This document shows positions 35,952-54,080 of a DNA stretch of 64,000 nt, piece after piece; position 1 is the stretch's first letter, and every line of letters starts with the position of its first letter. The position numbers and the translations under genes were made by a program. The stretch spans positions 186,001 through 250,000 of the forward strand of contig NZ_CP132312.1 of assembly GCF_030733845.1 (NCBI RefSeq), written 5' to 3'. The stretch comes from Shinella zoogloeoides (lineage in GTDB: Bacteria > Pseudomonadota > Alphaproteobacteria > Rhizobiales > Rhizobiaceae). The notes under the pieces were generated by a model. The model was not told the DNA's origin, made no database searches, and saw only the letters and a program-made list of their open reading frames with translations.

Positions 35952-35956
35952 CCGGC

Positions 35957-37912: not shown

Positions 37913-38167
37913 ATGACCGACGAAACCAAGACCACCATACGCGCCTTCATCGTGGAGAACTTCCTGTTCGGCGACGACAGCCAGCCGCTTCCGGCCGACC
38001 TGTCGCTCATCGACAACGACCTGATCGATTCCACCGGCATCCTCGAGCTTGTCGGCTTCCTGGAAGAGCGCTTCGCCATCTCGGTGGCCGATGCCGATAT
38101 CGTGCCGACCAATCTCGACACGATCGAGCGGATCGCCGGCTTCATCGAGCGCAAGCAGGCAGCCTGA
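37913..38167 (+). CDS. Acyl carrier protein of the cassette
   Basis: An 84-residue acidic acyl carrier protein (ACP/PCP fold, four helices). The phosphopantetheine Ser is in LIDNDLIDSTGILEL, in the D-S-x pattern. It differs from housekeeping AcpP, which has GADSLDTVEL. It abuts asnB and is followed 14 bases later by an AMP-forming ligase, so it probably carries an activated acid for transfer. A phosphopantetheinyl transferase is not visible in the window. Confidence 0.88.
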   Translation: MTDETKTTIRAFIVENFLFGDDSQPLPADLSLIDNDLIDSTGILELVGFLEERFAISVADADIVPTNLDTIERIAGFIERKQAA

Positions 38168-38181
38168 CGGCGGAAGCGGCC

Positions 38182-39702
38182 ATGCGGATCGAGCACTATC
38201 TTCGGGAAAGCGCGGAGCGGGACGGGGCTAAGACGGCCATCGTCGCGGGCGACGTGCGGCTGAGCTACGACCGCCTCCTCGACCTCGCCGCCCGCATGGC
38301 GACGACGCTGCAGCGCCATGGCGTTGCCCGCGGCGACCGCGTGCTCATCCTGCTCGACAACGGCTGGCAGGCGGCGGTCACGGTCTTCGCGACCTGGATG
38401 GCCGGGGCGGTCATCTGCTCGGTCAACCCGTCGAGCAAGGGGCCTCGCCTTTCGCAGATCGCGCGCGATTGCACGCCGGCGATCATCGCCACGGAAAACC
38501 GACTTGAGGGGCTGGTCGAGGCGACCGCCGGGCTTTCGGCCATCCCGCGCCTCGTGACGGGCGACGGCCGGAGCTTTCAGGCGGGGCTCGAAGCCGAGCC
38601 CTTCGCGGCCGACATCCTGCCGGATACCGACCTTGCCGCGCTGATCTATACATCCGGCTCGACGGGCGAGCCGAAGGGCGTGATGCTCGCGCACGAGAAC
38701 ATGGATGCGGCGGCGCGGTCGATTGCCTCCTACCTCGAAAACACTGCCGCCGACACGATCCTCGTCGTCCTGCCCATGTCCTTCGGCTACGGGCTCAACC
38801 AGCTCGTGACCGCGATGCTGACGGGCGCGACGCTCGTCATCGAAAAATCCTTCGCCTTCCCCCAGGCGATCTTCGAGAAGATCCGCGACGAGCGCGTTAC
38901 CGGCTTTCCGCTGGTGCCGGCGATGGCCGCGATGATGATGCAGGCGCGAGACCTCGATCCGTCGCTCTTTGTGAGCCTGCGCTACATGACGAGCGCCGCC
39001 GCGCCCCTGCCGCTGGCGCATCTCGACCGGATGCGCGCCTTCCTGCCCCATGTCCGCCTCTATGTGATGTACGGCCAGACCGAATGCACCCGCGCCACCT
39101 TCCTGCCGCCGGAGGAGATCGACGCGCGGCGCGGATCCGTCGGCATCGCCATACCGGGGGCCCGCGCCGCGGTGGTGGACGACGCCGGTCTGCCGGTTCC
39201 GCCGGGCACGGTCGGCGAACTGGTGATCAGCGGGCCGAATGTCATGCGAGGCTATTGGCGCAAGGAGGCCGCGACCTGCAAGGCGCTGCGGCCGGACCCG
39301 GACACCGGAGCCATCCGCCTTCACACAGGCGACCTTTTCACCGCGGATGCGGACGGCTACCTCACCTTCGTCGCCCGCACGGACGACATCATCAAGCCGC
39401 GCGGCGAGAAGGTCGCGCCGAAGGCGGTGGAGGACGTGCTGCACCGCATGCCGGGTATCGCCGAAGCGCTCGTCGTCGGCGTTCCCCATGACGTGCTCGG
39501 CGAGGCCGTCAAGGCGATCGTCGTCGCTTCCGATCCCGCCCTGACCGAACGGGACGTGATGCGTTTCTGCGCGCGCAACCTCGAGGATCACATGGTCCCG
39601 AAGGTCGTCGAATTCCGGGCTTTTCTGCCCAAGACCGAATCCGGCAAGGCAAGCCGCAGGCTCGCCGCCCAAACCGCCACCCTGACAGGATCGAACGCAT
39701 GA
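38182..39702 (+). CDS. AMP-forming acyl-CoA/acyl-ACP ligase
   Basis: A 506-residue ANL-superfamily adenylating enzyme. The P-loop-like A3 motif is YTSGSTGEPKGVMLAHEN (about 155-172), the aromatic/Thr motif YVMYGQTECTRATF (about 293), the hinge HTGDLFTADADGYLTFVART, then DDIIKPRGEKVAPKAVE and the C-terminal catalytic Lys in PKTESGKASRRL. It activates a carboxylic acid and presumably loads the adjacent ACP. GCGGAAGCGG precedes the ATG. It overlaps the NadE-like gene by four bases (ATGA). The acid is unknown. Confidence 0.88.
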   Translation: MRIEHYLRESAERDGAKTAIVAGDVRLSYDRLLDLAARMATTLQRHGVARGDRVLILLDNGWQAAVTVFATWMAGAVICSVNPSSKGPRLSQIARDCTPAIIATENRLEGLVEATAGLSAIPRLVTGDGRSFQAGLEAEPFAADILPDTDLAALIYTSGSTGEPKGVMLAHENMDAAARSIASYLENTAADTILVVLPMSFGYGLNQLVTAMLTGATLVIEKSFAFPQAIFEKIRDERVTGFPLVPAMAAMMMQARDLDPSLFVSLRYMTSAAAPLPLAHLDRMRAFLPHVRLYVMYGQTECTRATFLPPEEIDARRGSVGIAIPGARAAVVDDAGLPVPPGTVGELVISGPNVMRGYWRKEAATCKALRPDPDTGAIRLHTGDLFTADADGYLTFVARTDDIIKPRGEKVAPKAVEDVLHRMPGIAEALVVGVPHDVLGEAVKAIVVASDPALTERDVMRFCARNLEDHMVPKVVEFRAFLPKTESGKASRRLAAQTATLTGSNA

Positions 39703-40679
39703 TCGCACCGACGTCCCATACGCCCTCCTTCGCGCCGCTCATGCTCGATCCCGCCGCGGAGGTGGAGCGCATCACCGCCTGGATGCGCGAGAAGCTGCGC
39801 ACCGACCTGCGCAAGCGCGGGCTCGTACTCGGCCTTTCCGGGGGCATCGATTCGAGCCTTTCGGCTGCGCTTGCGGTGCGCGCGCTCGGTGCGAAGAACG
39901 TCTTTGCCCTCTATATGCCGGAGAACGATTCCGACCCGGAGAGCCTGCGCCTCGGGCGCAGCGTGGCGGAGACCTTCGGCATCGACAGCGTGGTCGAGGA
40001 TATCGGGCCGTCGCTCGCGGCCATGGGCTGCTACGAGCGCCGCGACGCCTTCATCCGCGAGGCCGTGCCGGAATATGAAGCCGGCTGGGCCTCCAAGATC
40101 GTCTTCGACAACCCGATGACGACTGGCGGTTACAACATCTCCTCGCTCGTCGTGCGCTCGCCCGACGGCGAAATGCGCAAGGTTCGCCTGTCGGCAAATG
40201 CCTATCTCGGCATTGTCGCGGCGACGAACATGAAGCAGCGCACGCGCAAGCAGCTCGAATATTACCATGCCGACCGCCTGAACTTCGCAGTGCTCGGCAC
40301 GCCGAACCGGCTGGAATACGACCAGGGCTTCTTCGTCAAGAACGGCGACGGCGCGGCCGATATCAAGCCGATCGCCCATCTCTACAAGTCGCAGGTCTAC
40401 CAGCTCGCCGCCTATCTCGGCGTGCCCTCGGAAATCCTCGCCCGCCCGCCGACCACGGACACCTATTCGCTGCCGCAGACGCAGGAGGAGTTCTACTTCG
40501 CCCTGCCCTACGACAAGATGGACATCTGCCTTTACGGTCTGGAAAACGCCGTGCCGGCGCAAAAGATCGCCGAGGCGACGGGGCTCAAGGCGAGCGACGT
40601 GGAGCTGGTCTGGGCGGATATCGCCGCCAAGCGCAAGGTCGCGCGCTACCTGCATTGCCAGCCGCTCACGATGGGCTGA
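39699..40679 (+). CDS. NAD-synthase (NadE)-like amidating/adenylating enzyme
   Basis: A 326-residue protein of the ammonia-dependent NAD synthase fold without a glutaminase domain. The PP-loop is GLSGGIDSSLSAALA (about 46-60). The NadE block GTPNRLEYDQGFFVKNGDGA and LYKSQVYQLAAYLGVPSEIL is present, but the usual PSAGLW-like segment is RPPTTDTYSLPQTQEE. It overlaps the ligase gene by four bases and ends an AsnB-ACP-ligase cassette, an unlikely place for housekeeping NAD synthesis. It could be a repurposed amide-bond former. Substrate assignment remains open, as ordinary NadE is also possible. Confidence 0.72.
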   Translation: MIAPTSHTPSFAPLMLDPAAEVERITAWMREKLRTDLRKRGLVLGLSGGIDSSLSAALAVRALGAKNVFALYMPENDSDPESLRLGRSVAETFGIDSVVEDIGPSLAAMGCYERRDAFIREAVPEYEAGWASKIVFDNPMTTGGYNISSLVVRSPDGEMRKVRLSANAYLGIVAATNMKQRTRKQLEYYHADRLNFAVLGTPNRLEYDQGFFVKNGDGAADIKPIAHLYKSQVYQLAAYLGVPSEILARPPTTDTYSLPQTQEEFYFALPYDKMDICLYGLENAVPAQKIAEATGLKASDVELVWADIAAKRKVARYLHCQPLTMG

Positions 40680-40735: not shown

Positions 40736-41074
40736 TCAGACGAGCGCCGTCACCTGGATTTCCACCAGCAGTTCCGGCGCGGCGAGGCGGGCCTCCACCG
40801 TGGCGCGGACCGGCAGGTTGTCCTTGTCGACCCATTGGTCCCAGACTTCGTTCATCTGGTTGAAATGGGCGATGTCGCGCAGCCAGATGGCGGCGCTGAT
40901 GAGCTTGGCCTTGGAGGTGCCGGCTTCCGCGAGCAGGCCGTCGATCTGCGCGAGGATGTCGCGGGTCTGGGCGACCGTGTCGGCGCCTTCGCCGGTGACA
41001 CCGGCCGTGGTGACCACACCGTTGACGACGACGGCGCCGCAGAAACGCTTGCCGGGCTTGATGCGCTTGATCAT
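40736..41074 (-). CDS. RidA/YjgF-type enamine/imine deaminase
   Basis: A 112-residue RidA-family trimeric protein that hydrolyses reactive 2-imino acids to 2-keto acids plus ammonia. Family traits are visible in the N-terminus (IKRIKPGKRFCGAVVVNGVV), in VAQTRDILAQIDGLLAEAGT and in LPVRATVEARLAAPELLVEI, where the conserved Arg that binds the substrate carboxylate is the R of VRATVEA or EARLA. It is the last gene of the operon, 19 bases after the racemase fusion, and fits deamination of the imine released by the D-amino-acid dehydrogenase. GGGAGA precedes the ATG at 41074. Confidence 0.87.
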   Translation of the reverse strand: MIKRIKPGKRFCGAVVVNGVVTTAGVTGEGADTVAQTRDILAQIDGLLAEAGTSKAKLISAAIWLRDIAHFNQMNEVWDQWVDKDNLPVRATVEARLAAPELLVEIQVTALV

Positions 41075-41093: not shown

Positions 41094-42881
41094 TCAAAGA
41101 ATGGTTTTGCCGAAAGCCGACAGGATGAAGTTGGCGCATTCCGCGCCGATCGGCGATGGCAGCGCGGCATCAATGCCTGAAACGCTCAGCGAGCGCAACT
41201 TGCCGCTGAGCGCCGCCATCTCCATCGCCGAATGGGTCTCGCGCACGGTGATACCGCCGATGCCGCCGCTCCAGCCGGACATGTCGGTGGCAGTCGGCGA
41301 ATAGCAGAGGTGAAAACCGCGCGTGCCGGCAGAGGCGATGGCGATTGCGTCGCGCATCGCCTGGCGCAGGCCGACGGCGTCGATCTCCGCCATGGTGAAG
41401 GTGCGGATGCGCGAAGCTTTCAGCGTCGCCGCCTCTTCGGGCGCTGCATTGCGCAGGCCGACGAGCACGATGTTCTCAGGCGCGATATGCGGCGGCAGGC
41501 GGGCCAGCATGCGGCGCAGCACGGCATTTTCCGGTGGCGGCGCGTCGTCATCTCCATCCGGCATCATGGCGGCGTCGGAATCGATCCAGACCAGGCCGAG
41601 CGCATCGTGCCGGCGGCCGGCCGCTTCGACGAAGGGCAGGATATCGCGCCGGCGGGCGCAGATGGAAAGCCTTCGCGCATCGCCATCAGTATCCCGCTCG
41701 AAACCGAGATGTTCGATGCGCTCGACAATGTTCTGCACGACCACGAGCGCGCCGCCGATGGCGTCCGTCTCGATTTCATAGGTCTTGCGCGCGCCCGCTT
41801 TCTGCACATCCCGCATGGGAACCTTCTCCACATATTCAGACGTCATCACCGTCAGCAGCGCGCCGTAGTTCATTCGGAAGCTGACATTCTCGCCCACCTG
41901 CAAGGGCGGATCGGCCTCGGTGAGATCGAGCACGAGATGATCGCTGGATGCGCCGAGCACACGCACGCCCGGGCGCGCCGGGATGAGCCCTTCGGCGATC
42001 ACGTCCTCGCGGCCGATATTGGCGATGCCGCGCAGCCGGTCTCCTTCGTCGAGGAAGACCGGCGCGTTGCCGAAGGCGTCGAGGCCGGACTTGCCGATCG
42101 GCATCGACGGCTTGACCTTCACTTCCAGCAGTTCGCCGGTGAGCTCGAAGGCATCGCGGTCGAGCGCCTCCCACGGCTCGGTGAGGAAGGTGTCGCGCCC
42201 GCCCTGCAGGATCGCCTCGCCGATGCGCAGGTTGTTGATGCCGACAGGCATTCCGCCGGCCAGAAGCAGGGGAAGCGAGGAGGAGTTGCCGCCGGAGACC
42301 CAATCGAGCGGGCGGCCGGTGATGCTCTCCACCTTGTAGGCGTGGGCGACGAGCTGCGTCAGGTTCTCCTGCGTCGGGATGATGGCGCCGAAGCAGGTGA
42401 GGTTGGTGCCGACGCCGGCTATGCGCACGCCGGGCAGGTCCATCACCGCCTCGACGGTGGGGATGAGGTCGCTCGGCCAGATTCCCTCGCGCAGGTCCCC
42501 GAGGTCGATCATCAGGATGACGTCGTGCACACGGCCGAGCCGTTCGGCGACGCGGGAAATCTCGCGCATCAACTGCAACTCGGATTGCAGGCTGATATCG
42601 ACGGTGCGCACCAGTTCCTCCACCCGCGTCAGCGGCGGCGAGCGGAGCAGCATGACCGGGCAGTCGATGCCGGCATCGCGCAGGCGGCGGATGTTCTCGA
42701 AGCGGGATTCGGCGATGCCCGCCACGCCGCCGCGCAGCATGGCGCGCGCGACCTGCGGCATGCCGCAGGTGCCCTTGGTAACGCCGAACGGCGTGATGCC
42801 CGCGCCGCGGCAGAGATCAACGACCGCGCGGGCATTGCGTTCGATGCAGGCAAGATCGATCGAGATTTGCGGATCGGACAT
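41094..42881 (-). CDS. PLP-dependent racemase fused to a degenerate arginase-like domain
   Basis: A 595-residue fusion. Residues 1-360 are an alanine/ornithine-racemase-like fold-type III enzyme: start ISIDLACIERNARAVVDLCR, PLP Lys36 in VTKGTCG, and a second-domain block FRMNYGALLTVMTSEYVEKV. Residues about 375-595 read as an arginase/agmatinase-like domain with spaced equivalents VWIDSDAAM, NIVLVGLRNAAPEEAA and GGIGGITVRETHSAMEMAAL. The metal motifs are broken: the family DAHAD is DSDAA and the SFDIDxxDP strand is CYSPTATDM, so metal-dependent urea release is unlikely. AAGGGA precedes the ATG at 42881. In this operon it would racemise a basic amino acid, probably arginine (inference); the second domain may bind the guanidino group. 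Confidence 0.82.
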   Translation of the reverse strand: MSDPQISIDLACIERNARAVVDLCRGAGITPFGVTKGTCGMPQVARAMLRGGVAGIAESRFENIRRLRDAGIDCPVMLLRSPPLTRVEELVRTVDISLQSELQLMREISRVAERLGRVHDVILMIDLGDLREGIWPSDLIPTVEAVMDLPGVRIAGVGTNLTCFGAIIPTQENLTQLVAHAYKVESITGRPLDWVSGGNSSSLPLLLAGGMPVGINNLRIGEAILQGGRDTFLTEPWEALDRDAFELTGELLEVKVKPSMPIGKSGLDAFGNAPVFLDEGDRLRGIANIGREDVIAEGLIPARPGVRVLGASSDHLVLDLTEADPPLQVGENVSFRMNYGALLTVMTSEYVEKVPMRDVQKAGARKTYEIETDAIGGALVVVQNIVERIEHLGFERDTDGDARRLSICARRRDILPFVEAAGRRHDALGLVWIDSDAAMMPDGDDDAPPPENAVLRRMLARLPPHIAPENIVLVGLRNAAPEEAATLKASRIRTFTMAEIDAVGLRQAMRDAIAIASAGTRGFHLCYSPTATDMSGWSGGIGGITVRETHSAMEMAALSGKLRSLSVSGIDAALPSPIGAECANFILSAFGKTIL

Positions 42882-42924: not shown

Positions 42925-44172
42925 TTAGTTCCTGTAGAGCAGGCCTGCGGTATCGATCTCCGGCTTGCGGCCGGAGACGAGGTCGGCGATGAGCTTTCCC
43001 GAGCCACAGGCCATCGTCCAGCCAACATGGCCGTGGCCGGTATCGAGGAAGAGGTTTTCGTAGCGCGCGCGCCCATGCACCGGCACCGATCCGGGCATCA
43101 TCGGCCGCAGACCCGACCAGAGCACGGCCTTGGTCTCGTCGATGGCGCCGGGGAAGAGATCGTGCGCCGTCTTGAACATGGTGGCGAAATCGGACGGCTT
43201 GAAGGAACGGTCGTAGCCCGCGAACTCCGCCGTCGAGGCAAGGCGCAGGCGGTTGCCGAGGCGCGAATAGGCGATCAGCCGGTCTTCGTCGACGCCGCCC
43301 ATGGTCGGTCCATTGTCCGCGTCTATGGGAAGCGTCGCAGTGTATCCCTTGACGGGATAGACCGGCACGTCGATGCCGATCTTGCGGGCGAGCAGGGAAC
43401 TCTCCGGCCCGAGCGACAGCACGACGGCGTCGCAGGCGACCTGCCCCCTGTCCGTCAGCACGGCCTTGACCCGCCCGCCCTCTACGTCGAGACCGGTGAC
43501 GGTTGTGCCGAAGCGGAAATCGACGCCGTGGCGGGTGCGGGCCTGTTCGGCGAGGCTGCGGGTGAAGAGCGAGCTGTCCCCCGTCTGGTCCATCGGCGAA
43601 TAGACGCCGCCGGCAAGCTGGTGCTTGACCGCGGCAAGGCCCGGCTCCAGCGCTACCAGCCGTTCGCGATCGACCACTTCGATCTGAAGGCCCCGGTCGG
43701 CGATGTAGCGCATGTGTTTCGCGCCGGCATCCATGCTCTGCTGCGAACGGTAGAAATAGAGGATGCCCTTGCGCCGGTCGTCGTAGGAAATGCCGGTTTC
43801 CTCCTGCAGCGCGTTGATGCACTGGCGAGCATAGAAGGCGAGGCGCAGCTTGACGTCCGTATTGGCGTTGGCGCGGGCCTGCGTGCACTGCATGAGGAAG
43901 CGCAGGCACCAGGAAAGGAATTGCGGATCGAGCGAAAAGCGCACCTTGATGCCGAGGTCTGAGCGGAAGAGCGACTTCATGAAGGTGGCGAGCGCGCCGG
44001 GTGAAGCCCAGGCGGTGGAATCGCCCGGCGAGACGAGGCCGGCATTGCTCTGGCTGGTGCCGCGCGCCACGTCCTCGTGGCGCTCCAGCACGGTCACGTC
44101 ATGGCCGTCCTTCGACAGATACCAGGCCGCCGCCGTGCCGACGACACCGGCGCCCAGAACGACTACTTTCAT
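42925..44172 (-). CDS. D-amino-acid dehydrogenase, DadA type
   Basis: A 415-residue FAD-dependent oxidoreductase of the DAO/DadA class. The FAD-binding motif is VVVLGAGVVGTAAAWYLSKD (residues 3-22), then HDVTVLER; the C-terminal FAD block is LWSGLRPMMPGSVPV and DTGHGHVGWTMACGSGKL. DadA-type enzymes turn D-amino acids into imino acids, passing electrons to the quinone pool. It lies between the C45 gene (18 bases) and the racemase fusion (43 bases), which fits a racemase-dehydrogenase pair. With guanidinobutyrase nearby, a DauA-like D-arginine role is inferred, but the substrate is not proven by sequence. Confidence 0.9.
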   Translation of the reverse strand: MKVVVLGAGVVGTAAAWYLSKDGHDVTVLERHEDVARGTSQSNAGLVSPGDSTAWASPGALATFMKSLFRSDLGIKVRFSLDPQFLSWCLRFLMQCTQARANANTDVKLRLAFYARQCINALQEETGISYDDRRKGILYFYRSQQSMDAGAKHMRYIADRGLQIEVVDRERLVALEPGLAAVKHQLAGGVYSPMDQTGDSSLFTRSLAEQARTRHGVDFRFGTTVTGLDVEGGRVKAVLTDRGQVACDAVVLSLGPESSLLARKIGIDVPVYPVKGYTATLPIDADNGPTMGGVDEDRLIAYSRLGNRLRLASTAEFAGYDRSFKPSDFATMFKTAHDLFPGAIDETKAVLWSGLRPMMPGSVPVHGRARYENLFLDTGHGHVGWTMACGSGKLIADLVSGRKPEIDTAGLLYRN

Positions 44173-44190: not shown

Positions 44191-45207
44191 CTAGCTGCTC
44201 ACCGCGCCCTGCTTGAAGGTCGGCGCGAAGCCGCCGGAATCCCCATCGTTGAAGCGGATGATGCGCACCTCCTCCTCGAAGGCGGTGCAGGATTGCCGCC
44301 ACACCGATCCCGGCCAGACCAGTTCCACCGAGGCGTCGAGCGGGTGGTAGGCGGCGGTGTAGAGCGTGCCGTAGCCGCGTCCGTACGAGGTCTGGTAGAC
44401 CGGCGGGCGCAGGAAGCTGGCAAGCACGGCTTGCGTATCGGCCGTGCCGGCAAGCGTTTTCTCCAGCGACGCCTCGCGCTCCATCGACCGGGTGGTCTCG
44501 GCATGGCGCGCCCATTCGACGCCGTGCTGGTGGTTGGTGCTGACGCGCCGCTCCACCACTTCGGCCGGGCGGTCCGGGTTGACATAGACCGTCGCGTGGC
44601 TGCCGTCCCGGTCGATGATGGCGATCGAATAGGACATGTGAACGGGAATGCGCTGGAGCATTGCGACGGCCTCGGCCGTGTTGCTCGCGAATTCCAGCAC
44701 GTAGCGCAGCACGACGGGAATGCCGAAGCCCTGCCCTGCCGCCGTACGCCCGCCGAAGGAGAGCGAGACGGCAAGCCCATCCTCGTTGATGCCGTCGAGC
44801 ACGCCCCACAGGCAATCGACCACCGCCACCACCCGCTTGTTGTAGCGCGAGGCGAGCCAGGTGCCTTCGAGAAGGCGGGGGCTATAGTCGTAGTTGCGGA
44901 TGAGTGCCGGCTCCGCCCCCGTCAGGATCGCCTGCGAGCAGCCGCCGACATAGAAGGGGGGGCACCACATGGAGAGGAACCGCGCCTCGAGGTCCCCGCC
45001 GCCGGCCGCCGCGACGATGGCCTCATAGGTCGGCAGCAGTTCCGGCATGTGGGTGCGCAGCGCCTTCAGGCTCATGAAATAGGTGGGGCGCGAACGGACC
45101 CCGTCACGCACGAACCAGCGGCTATAGGCGTGCCAATGACGATCGAACACCCGGCGCCATTTCGGGCCGGGCAGGTCTTCGTCGATGGCTTCGAACTGGA
45201 GGTCCAT
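44191..45207 (-). CDS. C45-family autoproteolytic acyltransferase/amidohydrolase
   Basis: A 338-residue Ntn-hydrolase-type protein of peptidase family C45 (isopenicillin acyltransferase-like). The likely autoprocessing site is in YVGGCSQAIL, giving Cys90 as N-terminal nucleophile; the following ALIRNYDYSP matches the conserved family sequence GRNLDW-type. Cleavage products would be about 89 and 249 residues. Such enzymes form or hydrolyse amides. It is six bases from the ATP-grasp gene and 18 from the dehydrogenase gene, so it may remove or add an acyl/amide group on the operon substrate. Not part of any arginine pathway known to me. Confidence 0.8.
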   Translation of the reverse strand: MDLQFEAIDEDLPGPKWRRVFDRHWHAYSRWFVRDGVRSRPTYFMSLKALRTHMPELLPTYEAIVAAAGGGDLEARFLSMWCPPFYVGGCSQAILTGAEPALIRNYDYSPRLLEGTWLASRYNKRVVAVVDCLWGVLDGINEDGLAVSLSFGGRTAAGQGFGIPVVLRYVLEFASNTAEAVAMLQRIPVHMSYSIAIIDRDGSHATVYVNPDRPAEVVERRVSTNHQHGVEWARHAETTRSMEREASLEKTLAGTADTQAVLASFLRPPVYQTSYGRGYGTLYTAAYHPLDASVELVWPGSVWRQSCTAFEEEVRIIRFNDGDSGGFAPTFKQGAVSS

Positions 45208-45213
45208 GGCGCC

Positions 45214-46752
45214 CTACAGAATCTTGAAGGAGCCGGCTTCCGGCGCGTCGTCGCGCTGGATCTCCGTCAGCGGCTTGCTGGCATAGAGGCGCTTGATGCC
45301 CTTGATCCAGTTGCTGGCGCGCTCGTTCAGCTCGAATTCGTCGTCCATCACCCGCCCGCGCGTGATCAGGATGCCGAGGTCTGCTCCTTCGTAGCGGTAG
45401 TCGCCCGGGCCGGTGATGCGCAGGAAGAAGGCCTCCTCGTCGCTCTCGATCGCCTGGCGGTGATAGTCGAAGCGATCGTAGGACACGCTGCCATCGGGCG
45501 CCATGCGGTAGATGCCGCTTGCGGGCGCATGGGTGACGATGTCGACGAGGTCCTCCGTCGACTTGATGACCACCTGCGACCAGGAATCGATGAACTCTTT
45601 TCGCGCCCAGCGGTCGTTCAGCTCCTCCACGTCGATCTTGTAGTCGATGCCGGAAAATTCCATGAGGTGGAACAGGAAGAGCGGCGCATCGGCATAGGCG
45701 AAGGCGGCGTGGTTCGTCATGGAGCTGGCGCCGCAGATGCGCGGGTTGAGTTCGCCGAGATAGACCTCGTTGTCCTCGACGTCGATCAGGAAATCGAGGT
45801 CGAAATAACCGCGATATCCCTCCTCGCGCAACTGGTTGCCGAAGCGGTATGCCATGTCGCGCGCCTTGGCGCGGATCTTTTCGGAGAAGGCGCCGGGGAA
45901 GATTTCGTTGCCGCACCAGCCGCCCTTGTAGGGCGTCAGCGCGGGCTGGCCGACGACCTCCGTCAGGAGCGGGCCGACCAGCGTGCCGGACCCGGTCGTG
46001 CAGGCCTCCATCGTCGCGCCGCGGCACTTGATGCGCTTCATGATCTTCACTTCGTCTTCTGCGGAAATCTCCGCGGCGTGACGGTTATAGTCCTCCTCGC
46101 TGGCGATGAAGAAGGTCGTGTGGCCGCTGTCGCCGAAGGCGGTCTGCACCACGAGGTCCGCACCGATGCCCGCTTTTTTGGCTGAGGACAGCAGCTCCTC
46201 ATAGGTGCGGGCCGGCGCCAGTGTGTTCGGCACGGAGGGCACGCCCGCCTTGTTGCCGATGCGCACGGTTTCCATCTTGTTGTCGCAGCGCTGGCGCAGC
46301 TTCGCCTTGGGGAACCAGACCTCGATGCCGAGTTCCTTGCAGATCTCCTCGGTCGTCTCGTCGAACATCAGGAAGGTCGCGACCGCCCGGCCGCCGCGCC
46401 TAGTGATGTAGTCGATCACTTCCTTGTGCTGCAGCAGGTAGTTGTTGATGTCCTCGATGCTCTCGAATTCGGCATGGGGGATTTCGGAGGGGACGAAGAC
46501 GTTGGGGTGGCGGCCGTCGAAGCAGTCGATATAGCTGACGAACTTGAAATTCCGCACCCATTCGTCGATGCCGATCAGGTTGAAGTTCGTTGCGGAGATG
46601 AAATAGATCGGGCGCTCGTTGCGATGCATGACGACGCGAAGGTCGGCGACGTTGCGAATGGTTTCCATGATGTACCCCTCATGTGACTTCGAGTGCTTCT
46701 TGCGCTTGTCGCGCTTCTTTTCCTTCTTCTTCTCTTTCTTCTTTTTCGACAT
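45214..46752 (-). CDS. ATP-grasp ligase with lysine-rich N-terminus
   Basis: A 512-residue ATP-grasp protein. The N-terminal pre-ATP-grasp region (about 29-150) includes YIDCFDGRHPNVFVPSEIP. The ATP-grasp core (about 150-360) has AGVPSVPNTL, LVVQTAFGDSGHTTFF, and the Mg/ATP motif FLIDVEDNEVYLGELNPR. It joins a carboxylate to an amine or other nucleophile at the cost of ATP. The first 28 residues, MSKKKKEKKKEKKRDKRKKH and on, are almost all Lys/Glu/Arg, which is unusual. An alternative start is ATG 46668 (METIRN), preceded by GAGGGG six bases away, so the tail may be untranslated. Substrate unknown. Confidence 0.8.
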   Translation of the reverse strand: MSKKKKEKKKEKKRDKRKKHSKSHEGYIMETIRNVADLRVVMHRNERPIYFISATNFNLIGIDEWVRNFKFVSYIDCFDGRHPNVFVPSEIPHAEFESIEDINNYLLQHKEVIDYITRRGGRAVATFLMFDETTEEICKELGIEVWFPKAKLRQRCDNKMETVRIGNKAGVPSVPNTLAPARTYEELLSSAKKAGIGADLVVQTAFGDSGHTTFFIASEEDYNRHAAEISAEDEVKIMKRIKCRGATMEACTTGSGTLVGPLLTEVVGQPALTPYKGGWCGNEIFPGAFSEKIRAKARDMAYRFGNQLREEGYRGYFDLDFLIDVEDNEVYLGELNPRICGASSMTNHAAFAYADAPLFLFHLMEFSGIDYKIDVEELNDRWARKEFIDSWSQVVIKSTEDLVDIVTHAPASGIYRMAPDGSVSYDRFDYHRQAIESDEEAFFLRITGPGDYRYEGADLGILITRGRVMDDEFELNERASNWIKGIKRLYASKPLTEIQRDDAPEAGSFKIL

Positions 46753-46773: not shown

Positions 46774-48216
46774 TCAGCGTTTCAGGCGCGATGTGACGTG
46801 TTTGACTTCCAGATAGGACGACATGCCCCACGGCCCGAGCTCGCGGCCGATGCCGCTCGCCTTGAAGCCGCCCCACGACGTCTCGACGAAAATGGCCTGA
46901 GGGCTGTTGATCCAGATATGGCCGGCCTCGATGGCATCCGCCACGCGGTTCGCCTGTTCCTCGTCGCCGCTGACGACCGTGGCGACGAGGCCGAAGTCGC
47001 AGTCGTTGGCGAGCGCGATGGCCTCCTCCTCCGTCTCGAAGGTGCGGATGCACAGGACCGGACCGAAAATCTCCTCGCGCCAGAGGGCGCTGGTCGCCGG
47101 CACGTCGCCGAAAATCGTCGGCTCGACGAACCAGCCGTCGAGGCCGGCCGGCTTGCCGCCGCCGGCCAGCAGCGACAGGCCCTCGGCCTTGCCGCGTTCG
47201 ATATAGGCGAGCACCTTGTCATGCTGCGCCTTCATGGTGATCGGGCCGATCTCTGTGCCCTCGTCCAGGGGATCGCCGGGCTTCAAGGCTCGGCTTCTGG
47301 CGATTATGGCCTCGATCAGTTTTGGCGCAATGGGTTTTTCTACCAGAAGGCGAGAAGTGGCCGAACACATCTGGCCGGCGTTGAAGAAGATGCCGCCGAG
47401 CACGCATTCCACGGCCTCGTCAAAATCCGCATTTGCGAAGACGACGATGGGCGATTTGCCGCCGAGTTCCAGGCTCACCGATTTGACGCCCGGCGCACCC
47501 GCCGCCATGACGCGCGCGCCGACGGCGTTCGAGCCGGTGAAAGAAACCTTGGCCACGTCCGGATGGGTCGTCATCGGCGCGCCGACACGCTCGCCGGTGC
47601 CGGTGACGATGTTGAGCACGCCGGGCGGCAGGCCGATCTCGTCGGCGATAGCGCCGAGTTCCAGCTCCACGACGGGGGTGATCTCGGAGGGTTTCAGCAC
47701 GACGGTACAGCCGGCGGCAAGGGCCGGGGCAACTCTCCACGAGGTCGTCACCAGCGGGAAGTTCCAGGGCACGATAAGGCTCGCGACGCCCGCGGGTTCC
47801 TGGCGCAGCCGGGCGTGAAAACCATTATCGGGAAGCGCCACATCGGCATCCTGTCGCTCCTGAAGGACGACGGCCTGTTCGGCATAGTAGGCGAAGGACG
47901 CGGCCGCATCGGCCATGTCGATGCGCGCCTCGGCGATCGGCTTGCCGTTGTTGCGCGAGGAGAGGCGAGCCAGCTCTTCTGCGCGGTCCCGCAGCCTTTG
48001 CGCGATCGCGCCCAGATAGCGGGCGCGCTCGCGCCCGCCCGCATCGCGCCAGCCCGGGAAGGCCGCCTTGGCGGCGGCCACGGCCTTGGCGACGTCTCCC
48101 GGGCCGCCGGCCGAGACCTCATGGTAGACAGTGCCGCGATAGGGATCGAAGACCGGGATGCGGCCGGGCTCTACAGGGTCCTGCCAGCGACCGTCAATGT
48201 AGAGCTGGTGCCGCAT
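46774..48216 (-). CDS. Aldehyde dehydrogenase (KauB/4-guanidinobutanal dehydrogenase candidate)
   Basis: A 480-residue NAD-dependent aldehyde dehydrogenase. Visible are VPWNFPLVTTSWRVAPALAA (NAD site), LELGGKSPIVVF (general base Glu), NAGQMCSATSRLL (catalytic Cys) and the C-terminal WGGFKASGIGRELGPWG. It is most like betaine/aminobutyraldehyde-type enzymes. It follows the TPP-enzyme gene by seven bases; in the arginine transaminase route KauB oxidises the 4-guanidinobutanal made by the decarboxylase, so the order matches. The substrate is inferred from context. Confidence 0.88.
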   Translation of the reverse strand: MRHQLYIDGRWQDPVEPGRIPVFDPYRGTVYHEVSAGGPGDVAKAVAAAKAAFPGWRDAGGRERARYLGAIAQRLRDRAEELARLSSRNNGKPIAEARIDMADAAASFAYYAEQAVVLQERQDADVALPDNGFHARLRQEPAGVASLIVPWNFPLVTTSWRVAPALAAGCTVVLKPSEITPVVELELGAIADEIGLPPGVLNIVTGTGERVGAPMTTHPDVAKVSFTGSNAVGARVMAAGAPGVKSVSLELGGKSPIVVFANADFDEAVECVLGGIFFNAGQMCSATSRLLVEKPIAPKLIEAIIARSRALKPGDPLDEGTEIGPITMKAQHDKVLAYIERGKAEGLSLLAGGGKPAGLDGWFVEPTIFGDVPATSALWREEIFGPVLCIRTFETEEEAIALANDCDFGLVATVVSGDEEQANRVADAIEAGHIWINSPQAIFVETSWGGFKASGIGRELGPWGMSSYLEVKHVTSRLKR

Positions 48217-48223
48217 CTTCGCC

Positions 48224-49846
48224 TCACGCCGTCAGCGCATCGGCAAGCGGGGAGCCTGCCTGGATTTCGATCACGGTGGGCACCTTGCGGGTGGCGGAGG
48301 CCTTGAGTTCGCCTTCGAGTTCCGCAAGGGAGGCCGGGCGCGAGGCTTCGCAGCCGAGCGCCTTTGCGAGGCCGACGAAATCGGGCGTGAAGATATCGAC
48401 GCCGATCTGCGGGATGTCGCGCTCGGCCATGAAGGCCTTGATCTCGCCGTAGCTGGTGTTGTTCCAGATGACGACGGCCGTGGCGATGCCCGCTTCCACG
48501 GCGCTCGCCAGTTCCTGCACGGAGAATTGCAGGCCGCCGTCGCCGATGAGGCAGACGGAGGGACGGTCCGGCGCGCCGAGCTTGGCGCCGAAGGCGGCCG
48601 GCAGGCCGTAGCCGAGCGTGCCGTAGCCGGTGGAGGAGTTGAAGAAGGAACGCACCTGCGGCGCCTGGTAGAACTGATTGACCGCGTAGACCGGTTCGGT
48701 CTGGTCGCCGGCAACCGTCGCATCGGGCAGCGCGCGGGTGACGATCTCCATCAGCCTGCCATGGGTGCGGCAGGCGGGCCACAGGCCGGCGGCCACCTTT
48801 TCACGGACTGCCTTCGCCCGCGCCGCTCCGTCGCCTGTCTTGCGGGTTTCGCCAAGAGCGGCGTCGAGGCTGGCGGCGGCGAGTTTTGCGTCGGCGGCGA
48901 TCGGCACGTCGCAGCGAAGGCCGGTGACGATCTGCGCCGGGTCGATGTCGATGCGGATGAGCGGGCCGCCGAAGGTCAGCGGCTTCGGCTCGGGATACAT
49001 CTCCGTCTCGCCGAACTCCGTGCCGATGGCGAGGATCGCGTCGCTTGCCGCAAGCTCGTCGAGCAGCGGCTGCATGCTGAGATTGCCGGTCATGGTCAGC
49101 GCATGGCCGGGTTTCAGGATGCCGCGGCCGTTGATCGTCATGAAGACGGGGGCGTCGAGCTTTTCGGCGATGGCCGTGATTTCCGCCGCCGCATCGGCGG
49201 CACCGCCACCGGCGACGATCATCGGACGCTTGGCGGCCTTGAGGATCGATGTTGCTTTCTCGATGGCCGAAGGATCTGCGGCGGCGCGGCCCGGCAGCGG
49301 CCAGGCGTCCGCGGAGAGGTGCTCCGCTTCGGCGACGATCACGTCGAGCGGGATTTCGATATGGACGGGGCGCGGGCGCCCGGAATTGAACACGGTGAAG
49401 GCGCGCGCCATCACCTCGGGAAGCTGAGCGGGATCGAGCAGCGTGTGGCTGAAGGCGGCAACACCGGCCACGAGATTGCGCTGGGAGGGCAGTTCATGCA
49501 GCCGCCCCTGCCCCATGGCGAGCTCTGCGCGCGAATTCACCGCCGAGATGACCAGCATCGGCACCGAATCCGCATAGGCCTGGCCCATAGCGGTGGCGAT
49601 GTTGGTCATGCCCGGGCCGGTGACGATGAAGCAGACACCCGGCTTGCCCGTCACGCGCGCATAGCCGTCGGCCATGAAGCCCGCGCCCTGTTCGTGGCGC
49701 GGCGTGACGTGGCGGATCTTCGTGGCCGGCAGGCCGCGATAGAGTTCGACCGTGTGGACGCCCGGGATGCCGAAGATCAGTTCGACGCCGTAGGATTCCA
49801 GGAGACGGACGAGGTATTCGCCGGTGGTGAGACGGGTGTCTGCCAT
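48224..49846 (-). CDS. aruI: TPP-dependent decarboxylase, 5-guanidino-2-oxopentanoate decarboxylase-like
   Basis: A 540-residue ThDP enzyme of the acetolactate-synthase/benzoylformate-decarboxylase superfamily. The cofactor Glu52 is in PRHEQGAGFMADGYARVTG; the ThDP/Mg motif is GDGGLQFSVQELASAVEAG, followed by the Asn in WNNTSYGEIK. Acetolactate synthase is unlikely: no regulatory subunit or leucine/valine genes are nearby, and the gene lies next to guanidinobutyrase and an aldehyde dehydrogenase. AruI converts 2-ketoarginine to 4-guanidinobutanal. The start 49846 has GAGGCG eight bases upstream. Substrate by analogy and context. Confidence 0.82.
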   Translation of the reverse strand: MADTRLTTGEYLVRLLESYGVELIFGIPGVHTVELYRGLPATKIRHVTPRHEQGAGFMADGYARVTGKPGVCFIVTGPGMTNIATAMGQAYADSVPMLVISAVNSRAELAMGQGRLHELPSQRNLVAGVAAFSHTLLDPAQLPEVMARAFTVFNSGRPRPVHIEIPLDVIVAEAEHLSADAWPLPGRAAADPSAIEKATSILKAAKRPMIVAGGGAADAAAEITAIAEKLDAPVFMTINGRGILKPGHALTMTGNLSMQPLLDELAASDAILAIGTEFGETEMYPEPKPLTFGGPLIRIDIDPAQIVTGLRCDVPIAADAKLAAASLDAALGETRKTGDGAARAKAVREKVAAGLWPACRTHGRLMEIVTRALPDATVAGDQTEPVYAVNQFYQAPQVRSFFNSSTGYGTLGYGLPAAFGAKLGAPDRPSVCLIGDGGLQFSVQELASAVEAGIATAVVIWNNTSYGEIKAFMAERDIPQIGVDIFTPDFVGLAKALGCEASRPASLAELEGELKASATRKVPTVIEIQAGSPLADALTA

Positions 49847-49850
49847 GATG

Positions 49851-50804
49851 TTATCGCCTCTGCACGCCCGGAAGGACGCAAAGCATTTCAAAGAGAAGGT
49901 TGGCCGCCGTGATCGCCGTGTTGCCCGAGGGATCGTAAGGCGGGGAGACCTCGACGAGGTCGCAGCCGACGAGGTTGAGGCCCCAGCAGCCGCGGATGAT
50001 CTCCAGCGCCTGGATCGTGTTGAGGCCGGCGATCTCGGGCGTGCCGGTGCCGGGCGCGATCGACGGATCGAGGCTGTCGATGTCGAAGGAGAGATAGACC
50101 GGGCGGTCGCCCATCTGCGCGCGGACTTCCTCCATCAGCGGCGTCAGCGACTTGTGCCAGCACTCTTCCACCTGCACCACGCGGAAACCCTGCTCGCGCG
50201 ACCAGTCGAAATCGTCGGCGGCATAGCCCGTGCCGCGCACGCCGATCTGGATGCAGCGCTTGGTGTCGAGCACGCCGGCCTCGACCGCGCGGCGGAACGG
50301 TGTGCCGTGGGCGATCGGCTCACCGAACATGTGCTCGTTGATATCGGCATGGGCATCGACATGGATAAGGCCGACGGGGCCGTGTTTTTCCGCCATCGCC
50401 CGCAGGATCGGATAGGAGAGCGTGTGGTCGCCGCCGAGCGTCAGCGGGATGCAGTCGTTCTTGATGATGTCGCGATAGGCATCGGTGATGATGTCGATGC
50501 ATTTCGGCAGGTTGAACGTGTCGATCGCGACGTCGCCGATATCGGCGACCTGCAGGCTTTCGAAGGGGGCGGCGCGGGTCGCCATGTTGTAGGGGCGGAT
50601 CATGCAGCTCTCGGTGCGGATCTGCCGCGGCCCGAAGCGCGTGCCCGGCCGGTTCGACGTGCCGATATCCATGGGAATGCCGACGAAGCAGGCGTCGAGC
50701 CCTTCCGAGGTCGGCTGCGTCGGCAGGCGCATCATGGTGGCGGGGCCGCCAAAGCGCGGCATTTCGTTGCCGCCCAGCGGCTGGTTGAAGGTCTTTGTCG
50801 TCAT
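49851..50804 (-). CDS. gbuA: Ureohydrolase, guanidinobutyrase/agmatinase family
   Basis: A 318-residue binuclear Mn ureohydrolase. All metal motifs are intact: GGDHTLS, HVDAHADIN, and SFDIDSLDPSIAPGTGTPEI, with the downstream Glu in DLVEVSPPYD. The N-terminal RFGPRQIRTESCMIRPYN is typical of guanidinobutyrase/agmatinase enzymes. It would release urea from 4-guanidinobutanoate to give GABA. GGAGGAAAACAG precedes ATG 50804. The TPP enzyme starts four bases after its stop. Agmatinase or proclavaminate-amidinohydrolase activity cannot be excluded, but context supports the guanidinobutyrate reading. Confidence 0.88.
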   Translation of the reverse strand: MTTKTFNQPLGGNEMPRFGGPATMMRLPTQPTSEGLDACFVGIPMDIGTSNRPGTRFGPRQIRTESCMIRPYNMATRAAPFESLQVADIGDVAIDTFNLPKCIDIITDAYRDIIKNDCIPLTLGGDHTLSYPILRAMAEKHGPVGLIHVDAHADINEHMFGEPIAHGTPFRRAVEAGVLDTKRCIQIGVRGTGYAADDFDWSREQGFRVVQVEECWHKSLTPLMEEVRAQMGDRPVYLSFDIDSLDPSIAPGTGTPEIAGLNTIQALEIIRGCWGLNLVGCDLVEVSPPYDPSGNTAITAANLLFEMLCVLPGVQRR

Positions 50805-50900: not shown

Positions 50901-51773
50901 TTATTCTTCGGCCCGGGGCAGGATAAGGCAGGGCACGGGCGCGTTGTGCACGATCTTGCGGGCGTTCGAACCGAGGAAGACGCGCAGGATCGGCCCGAGC
51001 TTGCTGGAGCCGAGCACGAGCAGTTCTCCCTCCTCCCAGGAGAGCGACTCGAAGGCGGCCTTCCAGGTCGGCCCGTCCGCGATTTCGGCGGACAGGCCCT
51101 TCTGATCCGCCAGCAGGGCCGTCTGGGCATCCCGCGCCTGTTCGCGCAGCACGTTGGAAACGAACTGCTCCGCGTCGTAGCCCGCGCCCGTCGGGTACAT
51201 CTGCTTGTCGCGCACCACGAAGGTCACGAGACGGAGCGGAACCGTGTATTCCCGGGCCAGTGCGGCGCTGCGCGCGACGATGCCGGGTGCCGAAGACGAG
51301 CCGGAATAGGCGGCGCTGAGCCGTCGTACAAGGGTCCCGGGCCCGGCCGAATAGCCGTGCGGCGCCACGGCGATCGGCAGATGCGCCGAGCGCAGCAATT
51401 CCGTCGTCACGCCGCCCTCGCCGAAATAGCCGAGCGGCGCTTCGCGTGCCGAGCCGAGCACGAGGCAGTCGGCCCCGATATCCGAGGCGGCCCTGATCAG
51501 GCCCTCGCGGGCCGAAGGGGCGGAAACGGCCATGAACTCGGCGGTGACGTCGGCGGGCAGCGCCGCTTTCGCCTCTGCCTGAACCGTTACCGTGTGGCGG
51601 GCGAGGAAGCTGCCATATTCGCCGTCGACGCGCGCCGGCGAGGGATGCCCCCAGGTGTCGGGCGTCACGGTGCAGGCGAAAAGCGAGGCCTTGCAGGACC
51701 GGGCGAGCATCGCGCCCAGCGCCAATGCCTCCTGTCCGCCCTGGTCGGCGGAAAGTCCGACGAGGATCTTCAT
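50901..51773 (-). CDS. Universal stress protein, tandem Usp domains
   Basis: A 290-residue protein with two Usp (Rossmann-like) domains. Domain 1 begins MKILVGLSADQGGQEALALG and ends CLVLGSAREAPLGYFGEGGV; domain 2 begins near LVRRLSAAYSGSSSAPGIVA and ends with LLVLGSSKLGPILRVF and VPCLILPR. The G-x2-G-x9-G-S/T ATP motif is present only loosely in both. It overlaps the permease gene by four bases and lies 96 bases before gbuA. Its role in the operon is unclear; stress proteins coupled to permeases are common. Confidence 0.85.
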   Translation of the reverse strand: MKILVGLSADQGGQEALALGAMLARSCKASLFACTVTPDTWGHPSPARVDGEYGSFLARHTVTVQAEAKAALPADVTAEFMAVSAPSAREGLIRAASDIGADCLVLGSAREAPLGYFGEGGVTTELLRSAHLPIAVAPHGYSAGPGTLVRRLSAAYSGSSSAPGIVARSAALAREYTVPLRLVTFVVRDKQMYPTGAGYDAEQFVSNVLREQARDAQTALLADQKGLSAEIADGPTWKAAFESLSWEEGELLVLGSSKLGPILRVFLGSNARKIVHNAPVPCLILPRAEE

Positions 51774-53263
51774 TCCGCTGCCTCGCCGAGGGCATCCGGC
51801 TTTTCAAGCCGCGAATTGCGGGCGGAATAACCGAAATAGACGAGCGCCGCGATCGCGACCCAGACGCCGGTGATGGCGTAGACCATCCAGCTCAGCTTGA
51901 AGATCAGGTAAAGGCAGGCCGTGATGGAGAGGATCGGCAGGACGGGGCCGAAGGGCACCCGGTAGCCGCGCGGCATGTCCGGCTGCGTATACCGCAGGAT
52001 CAGGACGCCGGCCGAAACCACGGTGAAAGCGGTGAGTGTGCCCATGCTGGTCAGGTCCCACAAGAGGCCCGAGGGCACGAAGGCGGCGATCAGCGAGACG
52101 AAGATCGCGACGATGATCGTGCAGGCGACCGGCGTCATGCTGCGCGGATCGACCTTGTGGAAGATCGAGGGCAGAAGGCCGTCGCGCGAGACCGCGAAGA
52201 GGATGCGCGACTGGCCGTAGAGCACGATCAGCGTCACGGAGAAGATCGAGATCACCGCGCCGGCGGCAAGCAGGTTTGCCGGCCAGGCGGCGCCCGTGAG
52301 GTTCTGCAGGATGGTGGCAAGGCCGGCTTCCTGGCCCTCGAAGGCGCCGGCCGGCTGCACGCCGAGCGCCGCGAGGGCGACAAGCACATAGAAGCCGGTA
52401 ACGATGACGAGCGCCGAGATGATGGCGATCGGCAGGTTGCGCCGCGGGTTGACCACTTCCTCGCCCGCCGTGGAAACGGCATCGAGGCCGACGAAGGTGA
52501 AGAAGATGGAGGCCGCGGCCGCCTGTACCCCGCCGAAGCCGCTTTCATTGAAGAAGGGCGTGAAGTTGGCGCTGTTGAAGGCGCTTCCGGCGATCACGAT
52601 GAAGAGCGCGAGCACGGCGAGCTTGACCAGCACCATGATGGCGTTGGCGCGGGCCGATTCCTTCGCGCCGCGCAGCAGCAGGACGCAGCAGAGCATGACG
52701 AGGATGACGGCCGGCAGGTTGATGATGCCGGAGCCTTCCTGGAAGAAGGCCATGGCGAAGGGATGATCGCCATCGACGATGGTGATCGGCCCCTTGATCA
52801 TCCAGCCAGGCAGCACGATGCCGGTGATGTTGAAAAGCAGCTTCTCGACATATTCGGCCCAGCCCACCGCAACGGCGGCGGCGGAGATGCCGTATTCCAG
52901 CACCAGGCAGGCGGCGACGAAGAAGGCGATGCCCTCGCCGAGCGTCGCATAGGCATAGGAATAGGAGGAGCCCGAGACCGGGATCATCGAACTCATTTCC
53001 GCATAGCAGAGCGCCGAAAGGCCGGCCGCGACCGCCGCGATGACGAAGGAGATGACCACTGCGGGCCCGGCAACCGGCACCTGCTCGCTCAGCACGAAGA
53101 AGATACCCGTGCCGATCGTCGCGCCGACGCCGAACATGATCAACTGGAACAGCGTGATCGAGCGCCCGAGATGGCCGTGTCCGTCACCCGCGCCCGACGT
53201 GTCGGCCACGAGCCGGTCGACCGGCTTCTTGCGCGTGATCTGCTCAAGGATAGATGATGCCAT
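51770..53263 (-). CDS. APC-family basic-amino-acid permease, CAT type
   Basis: A 497-residue permease with about twelve segments. The first conserved region is ITLFQLIMFGVGATIGTGIF and the next PAVVISFVIAAVAAGLSALC followed by YAEMSSMIPVSGSSYSYAYA, typical of cationic amino acid transporters. GGAGGGGAGAACG precedes the ATG at 53263. It is the first gene of the operon and divergent from the Lrp/AsnC gene. Together with the guanidino-degrading enzymes downstream, arginine or a related basic amino acid is the likely substrate (inference). Confidence 0.88.
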   Translation of the reverse strand: MASSILEQITRKKPVDRLVADTSGAGDGHGHLGRSITLFQLIMFGVGATIGTGIFFVLSEQVPVAGPAVVISFVIAAVAAGLSALCYAEMSSMIPVSGSSYSYAYATLGEGIAFFVAACLVLEYGISAAAVAVGWAEYVEKLLFNITGIVLPGWMIKGPITIVDGDHPFAMAFFQEGSGIINLPAVILVMLCCVLLLRGAKESARANAIMVLVKLAVLALFIVIAGSAFNSANFTPFFNESGFGGVQAAAASIFFTFVGLDAVSTAGEEVVNPRRNLPIAIISALVIVTGFYVLVALAALGVQPAGAFEGQEAGLATILQNLTGAAWPANLLAAGAVISIFSVTLIVLYGQSRILFAVSRDGLLPSIFHKVDPRSMTPVACTIIVAIFVSLIAAFVPSGLLWDLTSMGTLTAFTVVSAGVLILRYTQPDMPRGYRVPFGPVLPILSITACLYLIFKLSWMVYAITGVWVAIAALVYFGYSARNSRLEKPDALGEAAE

Positions 53264-53537: not shown

Positions 53538-54080
53538 ATGAAGGATGAAGACGGGTCGATCCGGCTCGATCAGATCGACTTGCGCATTCTGGCATGTCTT
53601 CAGGCCAATGCGCGCGTGACGAACCAGGAACTGGCCGATGCCGTGGGCCTCTCGCCGAGCCCCTGCCTTCAGCGCGTCAAGCGCCTCGAAAAGGCCGGCG
53701 TTATCAACAGCTACCATGCCAGCATCGATCTCGCGAAGGTCTGCCGCCATGTGGACGTCATCGCCGCGGTGACGCTCAACAGCCATGGTCTGGAGGATTT
53801 CGAGATCTTCGAGAAGATGGTCGAGGAGATGCGCTACGTGGTGGAATGCACCAAGGTCAGCGGTCCGATCGACTATCTCGTGCGCTTCGTCTGCCCTGAT
53901 ATCGGCTCCTACCAGATGCTGTCGGATGAGCTGCTGCGGCTCGGTCCCAAGATCGGCAACCTCTCCAGCTATATCGTGCTCAAATCGAGCAAGCGCTACC
54001 GCGGCGTCGCCTTCGACGATCTGGTCTCCCCCTCGCCCCGGGGCGTGCCGGCGCGGCCCGCGCCACGCGCGGGCAAATAG
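53538..54080 (+). CDS. Lrp/AsnC-family transcriptional regulator
   Basis: A 180-residue regulator. The N-terminal HTH is LDQIDLRILACLQANARVTN, then LADAVGLSPSPCLQRVKRLE. The RAM ligand domain follows (about 75-160): VDVIAAVTLNSHGLEDFEIF, and VRFVCPDIGSYQMLSDEL. It is divergent from the permease that heads the ten-gene operon, so it is the natural amino-acid-sensing controller of that operon. The start at 53538 has only a weak upstream element. The effector is likely arginine or a D-amino acid (inference). Confidence 0.9.
   Translation: MKDEDGSIRLDQIDLRILACLQANARVTNQELADAVGLSPSPCLQRVKRLEKAGVINSYHASIDLAKVCRHVDVIAAVTLNSHGLEDFEIFEKMVEEMRYVVECTKVSGPIDYLVRFVCPDIGSYQMLSDELLRLGPKIGNLSSYIVLKSSKRYRGVAFDDLVSPSPRGVPARPAPRAGK

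Follow-up and report, generated by a model that had tools for sequence, protein, structure and literature searches.

A probable arginine racemase joined to a pseudo-arginase that has lost its metal site and kept an inter-subunit residue cluster

A gene in a 64,000-nucleotide stretch of Shinella zoogloeoides DNA (contig NZ_CP132312.1, positions 186,001 to 250,000; "the window") encodes, in a single frame, a pyridoxal-phosphate (PLP) racemase followed by a complete arginase fold that has lost its metal site and has retained the residue cluster of the arginase inter-subunit interface. The most likely reading of the sequence comparisons is that the protein is an arginine racemase with a pseudo-arginase that holds it together and probably regulates it. 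On balance, we favor the version of this reading in which the racemase heads an arginine-degrading route and the dead arginase has been kept for its trimer-forming surface and for an arginine niche in that surface. We put forward more tentatively, as the less probable of these proposals, that the racemase is assembled and switched by the pseudo-arginase as a sensor of arginine, much as ACT-type domains serve for other amino acids, the domain having lost an active site and kept an inter-subunit effector site, and that this arrangement arose once and spread across three proteobacterial classes.

Table 1. Coordinates of the fusion gene, its parts and the neighboring genes in the window.
Feature	Position	Strand	Basis
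Rid-family protein (imine deaminase)	40736..41074	-	TIGR00004 subfamily 49.8 bits, under cut-off 106.25; 19 bp downstream of fusion
Fusion gene, racemase plus dead arginase domain, 595 aa	41094..42881	-	translation, Pfam, 62 other full-length copies
Residues ~366-595, complete but metal-dead arginase fold	41097..41786	-	Pfam, hhalign, AlphaFold model, structure matches
Codons 547-554, RETHSAME: Arg547, Glu548, Glu554 (R255, E256, E262 of rat/human arginase)	41220..41243	-	alignment; 63/63
Codon of Asp501 (D204 of rat/human arginase, D199 of B. caldovelox arginase)	41379..41381	-	alignment; 63/63
Residues 1-355, Orr-like fold-III PLP racemase, Lys36 in VTKGTCG	41817..42881	-	racem_Orr, Foldseek
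FAD D-amino-acid dehydrogenase, taken as D-arginine dehydrogenase	42925..44172	-	NF001933 473 bits, cut-off 383; homolog in 61/66 loci
C45-family autoproteolytic acyltransferase/hydrolase	44191..45207	-	NF040521 172.7 bits, cut-off 85; PF03417
ATP-grasp protein, named biotin carboxylase PRK06524	45214..46668	-	NF005096 768 bits, cut-off 684
Aldehyde dehydrogenase, probably for 4-guanidinobutyraldehyde	46774..48216	-	BADH, aminobutyraldehyde dehydrogenase and other models; all 25 listed below cut-off
TPP enzyme, 5-guanidino-2-oxopentanoate (2-ketoarginine) decarboxylase	48224..49849	-	NF005712 737 bits, cut-off 500
Metal-intact agmatinase-type ureohydrolase, probably guanidinobutyrase	49851..50804	-	TIGR01230 212 bits, cut-off 174.3; metal motifs intact
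Universal stress protein	50901..51773	-	PF00582
Amino acid permease, APC type	51770..53263	-	model match; ortholog annotated amino acid permease
Divergent Lrp/AsnC-type regulator	53538..54080	+	ortholog annotated Lrp/AsnC family

The fusion frame comprises 595 codons and a stop, is read on the minus strand from 42881 to 41094, and begins at its own ATG with AAGGGA upstream; 43 bp separate it from the preceding dehydrogenase gene, and 19 bp separate its stop from the start of the Rid gene. Translation, Pfam matches and a survey of other genomes, which returned 66 loci with 62 full-length fusions, bear out the single racemase/arginase-like frame described in the initial annotation, and the 62 further copies rule out a sequencing error or a chance join of two genes. 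The initial annotation also called the arrangement new: this holds for the joining of a racemase to an arginase, of which we found no description in the literature among the matches listed, and does not hold for dead arginase domains at the C-terminus of PLP enzymes, one of which is already known in a Fusobacterium ornithine decarboxylase. A predicted model of the full-length protein has pTM 0.59 and linker pLDDT <50, and we draw nothing on interdomain geometry from it.

The N-terminal part is a racemase, as initially annotated. It matches Pfam Ala_racemase_N over residues 8-224 (1e-26) and aligns end to end, over residues 4-354, with the ornithine-racemase model racem_Orr (NF040742), scoring 393.3 bits against a cut-off of 480 bits; the alanine racemase model TIGR00492 gives 25.1 bits against a cut-off of 168. 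The PLP lysine, Lys36, is lysine in 63/63 fusions and in 3/3 strongly diverged fusions. Foldseek searches with this part rank D-threonine aldolase first and alanine racemases second. A close copy of the fusion is annotated plainly as alanine racemase. The racemase part thus shares with the Orr family its full alignment and its PLP lysine, but differs from it in its sub-threshold score, in an operon that points to arginine, and in its arginase domain, which stand-alone Orr relatives lack. We infer that the fusion protein is probably an arginine racemase, converting L-Arg to D-Arg.

A true arginase is the ancestor of the C-terminal domain, a relationship that the initial annotation had offered with reserve and that profile and structure comparisons now place on much stronger ground than a reading of the sequence alone allowed. 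Pfam Arginase (PF00491) matches residues 415-564 (7.6e-12; 45.7 bits against a cut-off of 22), phmmer matches B. caldovelox arginase (1cev) at 1.1e-12, and hhalign of the domain against 13 arginases gives 99.5% (E 3.7e-23, 204 columns); the arginase model TIGR01229 gives 44.7 bits, below its curated cut-off of 227.6. Alignment of the domain to ureohydrolase of the type found in the operon gives 73.6%, and the far better profile match to true arginases rules out an origin from that ureohydrolase. An AlphaFold model of the domain that was built from 21 fusion sequences, with no arginase included, has pTM 0.86 and a complete fold, and its best structural matches are arginases. In a midpoint-rooted tree, for which the program warned of long branches, a branch with 100/100 support separates all 16 fusion domains (13 fusions and the three diverged fusions) from 21 arginases and three agmatinase-type sequences.

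By alignment, the metal site of the domain is lost. The broken motifs DSDAA and CYSPTATDM are present as initially described, and the ligands are lost across the 63 fusions counted (the window protein plus 62 full-length loci). In rat/human numbering, assigned by aligning query residues 462-574 on rat residues 165-282 and in agreement with B. caldovelox numbering, the arginase residues are present in the 63 fusions as follows: H101 in 0, D124 in 61, H126 in 1, D128 in 0, D232 in 0, D234 in 10 and E277, which we take to be the guanidinium glutamate of arginase, in 0. Four other residues, D204, R255, E256 and E262, are each present in 63/63. The three diverged fusions, for which the alignment is unsure where the pocket loop is missing, keep D124 and all four cluster residues, and have other residues at the five remaining ligand positions and at E277. 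Across all 66 sequences (63 plus the three diverged), H101, D128, D232 and E277 are gone and the four interface residues are kept.

Ordinary arginases provide the reference for this pattern. Among 21 metal-intact arginases (5 of the 13 in A4; L164-L166; and 13 of the 14 other loci fetched with the domain profile, which may lean towards the fusions; L133, its frame misread, was dropped), the seven catalytic positions are conserved in 21/21 and the complete cluster in 19/21. The two exceptions, L132 and L138, have AESE and RKEK in place of DREE and may assemble differently; their catalytic set is intact without the cluster, which suggests that catalysis does not need the cluster. Agmatinase-type enzymes have the complete cluster in 0/3 cases, with the E256 residue in one. 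All four cluster residues are among the 13 fully retained of 75 arginase-invariant columns (P 0.0006, a figure that is only a guide, as it assumes that columns are independent, and the cluster was picked after the alignment had been inspected). We conclude from these alignments that the catalytic set and the interface cluster come apart in both directions.

In arginases, the residues of the retained cluster lie where subunits meet. The partners of Arg308, in the C-terminal tail, are reported to be Glu262 and, in the rat enzyme, Asp204 of the neighboring subunit; Arg308Ala arginase is monomeric and shows no cooperativity at pH 7.4; and in B. caldovelox arginase, which has no Arg308, an L-arginine molecule occupies the same interface region (PMC7925462). 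Titles cited in PMC6988801 (Garcia 2015) and PMC11271267 (Lobos 2020) refer to an allosteric site for arginine in the B. caldovelox enzyme and to the part played by Glu256 and Asp204 in oligomerization. The C-terminus of the fusions coincides with that of B. caldovelox arginase and has no Arg308 tail, so the niche between Asp501 and Glu554 is probably open to free L-arginine. The initial annotation had suggested that the dead domain might confer arginine specificity or control; as far as sequence can indicate, control is the better supported of the two, because conservation falls on the contact surface between subunits, which is where free arginine is bound in B. caldovelox arginase.

According to the reading that we favor, an ancestral arginase joined to a racemase lost catalysis, and its domain was retained for its trimer-forming surface. 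Because fold-III racemases are dimeric, a three-fold arginase contact would link their dimers into a larger complex, in the simplest case a hexamer; free L-arginine in the D501/E554 niche would stabilize this complex and adjust the racemase to the supply of arginine. The best-surviving alternative, to which we would give perhaps a little over one chance in four, is that the dead arginase is purely a scaffold that oligomerizes the racemase, or the racemase together with the dehydrogenase, and that has no ligand at its interface. The invariant cluster is first of all a trimer-contact cluster, and might serve only folding or a trimer that binds nothing; moreover, a basic residue around linker positions 365-366, present in 8/8 rows listed, could replace Arg308 and occupy the niche instead of a ligand. 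Two observations nevertheless argue for a ligand: an Arg308 tail is missing both from the domain and from the construct of B. caldovelox arginase that is reported to hold free arginine in the niche (PMC7925462), and the operon context puts the action of the protein on arginine.

The old active-site pocket is mostly gone, which tells against the initial suggestion of a guanidino-binding fold that acts through that pocket. Some pocket-side residues are kept, namely D124 (61/63) and E177 (20/21; presumably the equivalent of rat arginase E186), as are R171 and several glycines (21/21), and this retention counts against a reading in which only the interface matters. Together with the complete fold, the retained D124 and E177 would also suit a substrate gate, that is, a pocket that still binds arginine and passes it on to the racemase or confers arginine specificity. 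We nonetheless consider a gate quite improbable: E277 is present in 0/63 fusions, H126 in 1/63 and D232 in 0/63, the SGN loop residues are present in 0/21 fusions, and the pocket loop is deleted in the three diverged fusions.

The operon around the fusion consists of a minus-strand run of genes for a permease, universal stress protein, ureohydrolase, decarboxylase, aldehyde dehydrogenase, ATP-grasp protein, C45 protein, dehydrogenase, the fusion and a Rid protein (Table 1). The intact ureohydrolase that had been placed in the same operon is indeed there, with its metal motifs whole. The model matches of these genes support arginine as the context in which the fusion acts. In the route that we propose, the fusion would convert L-Arg to D-Arg; the FAD dehydrogenase would convert D-Arg to 2-ketoarginine, perhaps with the aid of the Rid protein; and 2-ketoarginine would be decarboxylated, oxidized to 4-guanidinobutyrate and hydrolyzed to GABA and urea. 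According to PMC5619798, iminoarginine from D-arginine dehydrogenase is deaminated in vitro by Rid2 and Rid3 and not by RidA or Rid1 proteins; the operon's Rid protein, which may or may not belong to Rid2 or Rid3, is, against our reading, only a candidate iminoarginine deaminase.

The genes for the D-amino-acid dehydrogenase, 2-ketoarginine decarboxylase, aldehyde dehydrogenase and ureohydrolase occur together in the window operon and likewise in Shinella, Rhizobium sp. Root1212, Labrys, Thiothrix, Thiofilum and a Burkholderiaceae MAG, with nine operon genes together in Thiothrix and Thiofilum. Across the 66 loci, several of them short, tblastn with window proteins (half coverage or more) finds the dehydrogenase in 61, but the decarboxylase in only 12 and the ureohydrolase in only 12, counts that weigh against our reading; in most Mesorhizobium loci only the dehydrogenase and the fusion are found. 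Six Mesorhizobium-group genomes have a decarboxylase elsewhere that is 47-50% identical (3/6 matches with an internal stop), which does not prove the route there. The three diverged fusions are preceded by genes for an FAD oxidoreductase and an agmatinase-type protein. The ATP-grasp and C45 genes (44191-46668) accompany the operon to Thiothrix and Thiofilum (66% and 51-52% identity) and perhaps encode a ligase and a hydrolase of an amide intermediate. Genes for asparagine synthase, acyl carrier protein, an adenylate-forming enzyme and NAD synthase adjoin the operon (35810-40679) and also lie beside it in NZ_CP084753.1 (L141), a plasmid labeled Roseateles sp. XES5 (betaproteobacterium, UNVERIFIED_ORG), a label that looks wrong.

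Arginase was absent at E 1e-40 or better in 8 of the 12 fusion-bearing genomes searched (drafts and two MAGs among the 12), so the arginine route may replace arginase there; in the genome of the window itself, an intact arginase is encoded outside the operon. The latter enzyme, the intact ureohydrolase of the operon and the precedent of metformin hydrolase, in which MetCb partners MetCa (PMC11271267), would allow the dead domain to co-assemble with the cell's true arginase or ureohydrolase. The absence of arginase from 8/12 genomes and of a complete interface cluster from all three agmatinase-type enzymes makes such a partnership very unlikely, and co-assembly with RocF as a general role is ruled out by the same absence (some of the genomes being drafts or MAGs).

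The distribution of the fusion is patchy. Of the 66 loci from the species-genome scan, four were left out of the fusion counts: L076 and L081, at contig ends; L080, with a break in frame; and L083, a stand-alone racemase. Hosts include Shinella, Rhizobium, Labrys, Mesorhizobium, Pseudaminobacter, a Burkholderiaceae MAG, Thiofilum and Thiothrix. Counting the center genome in each figure, full-length fusions occur in 7/61 genomes of a search of relatives and in 4/398 genomes of a phylum sample. With the domain profile, fusions are found in 9/247 genomes of a family sample searched at E 1e-30 (one of the nine being truncated by the end of its contig), in 1/385 genomes of a class sample, and in 1/369 genomes of the class of Thiofilum, plus the three strongly diverged fusions, in which a shorter arginase part scores under the Pfam cut-off (17.5-19.2 bits). 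Sixteen loci with weaker profile matches in the class samples were read and are ordinary metal-intact arginases. In the racemase tree, which included 8 of 11 stand-alone racemases (three without the anchor motif were left out), the fusion group has support of 79/74; a single joining would be the simplest reading, weakly supported from the racemase side.

Partial or broken copies also occur. Four genomes of the same genus (L010-L013) carry stand-alone fragments of 34-79 codons that match only within residues 517-595 (63-85% identity) and are probably footprints of operon loss. An extra 88-aa frame that resembles the last third of the dead domain (G1370:C57:70177-70407) lies ~12.5 kb from the full fusion of its genome. 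The Mesorhizobium helmanticense copy (L080:10001-11823) has one frame break near residue 285, which may be real or an assembly error.

The dead domain is under purifying selection, looser than that on the racemase: in 9 pairs, dN/dS is 0.083-0.207 for the domain and 0.023-0.113 for the racemase, a ratio of 1.4 to 4.7 (dS is saturated in pair L077/L085). That the domain is a decaying, functionless relic of a bifunctional arginase-ornithine racemase would suit this looser constraint, the progressive loss of pocket loops and the action of Orr-family racemases, going by the family name, on ornithine, the product of arginase, but it is scarcely credible given the low dN/dS in all 9 pairs, the full length retained in 62/66 loci and an interface that is invariant even in diverged copies.

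With H101, D128, D232 and E277 gone and the four interface residues retained in 66/66 sequences, the fusions offer a natural test of why a pseudoenzyme is retained. They are also an instance, open to experiment, in which an effector-binding site may have outlived its active site. They further provide a candidate for a dedicated arginine racemase; one close copy bears the label alanine racemase.

The closest known parallel is the Fusobacterium ornithine decarboxylase Oda, described in PMC8503589 and PMC12826042, in which a PLP enzyme of basic amino-acid metabolism likewise carries a C-terminal arginase-family domain with broken metal ligands, two Asp ligands being changed. The Oda decarboxylase domain is active without its arginase domain, so dead arginase domains can be dispensable, a point against the reading that we favor. 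Oda is an ornithine decarboxylase of aspartate-aminotransferase (AAT) fold, reported only in Fusobacteriaceae, whereas the fusion described here has a racemase of alanine-racemase fold, occurs in proteobacteria and has lost at least three of six ligands in every copy compared, usually five. The present fusion would be a second, separate joining of a basic-amino-acid PLP enzyme to an arginase that later died, and two separate joinings suggest a recurrent use for a dead arginase domain. With B. caldovelox-type arginase (TIGR01229; 1cev) the fusion domain shares the complete fold, the interface cluster and a C-terminus without the Arg308 tail, but it has no metal site and no guanidinium glutamate, and is joined to a racemase. 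MetCb of metformin hydrolase is similarly a metal-free arginase-family protein kept for assembly, a role that we infer for the domain here; unlike this PLP-enzyme-fused domain, MetCb is a separate subunit that partners an active ureohydrolase (PMC11271267). Finally, the proposed route shares with the DauA route, as set out in PMC5619798, the oxidation of D-Arg via iminoarginine with Rid proteins to 2-ketoarginine; in P. aeruginosa DauB returns 2-ketoarginine to L-Arg, whereas here a racemase precedes the oxidation and a decarboxylase, an aldehyde dehydrogenase and a ureohydrolase follow it.
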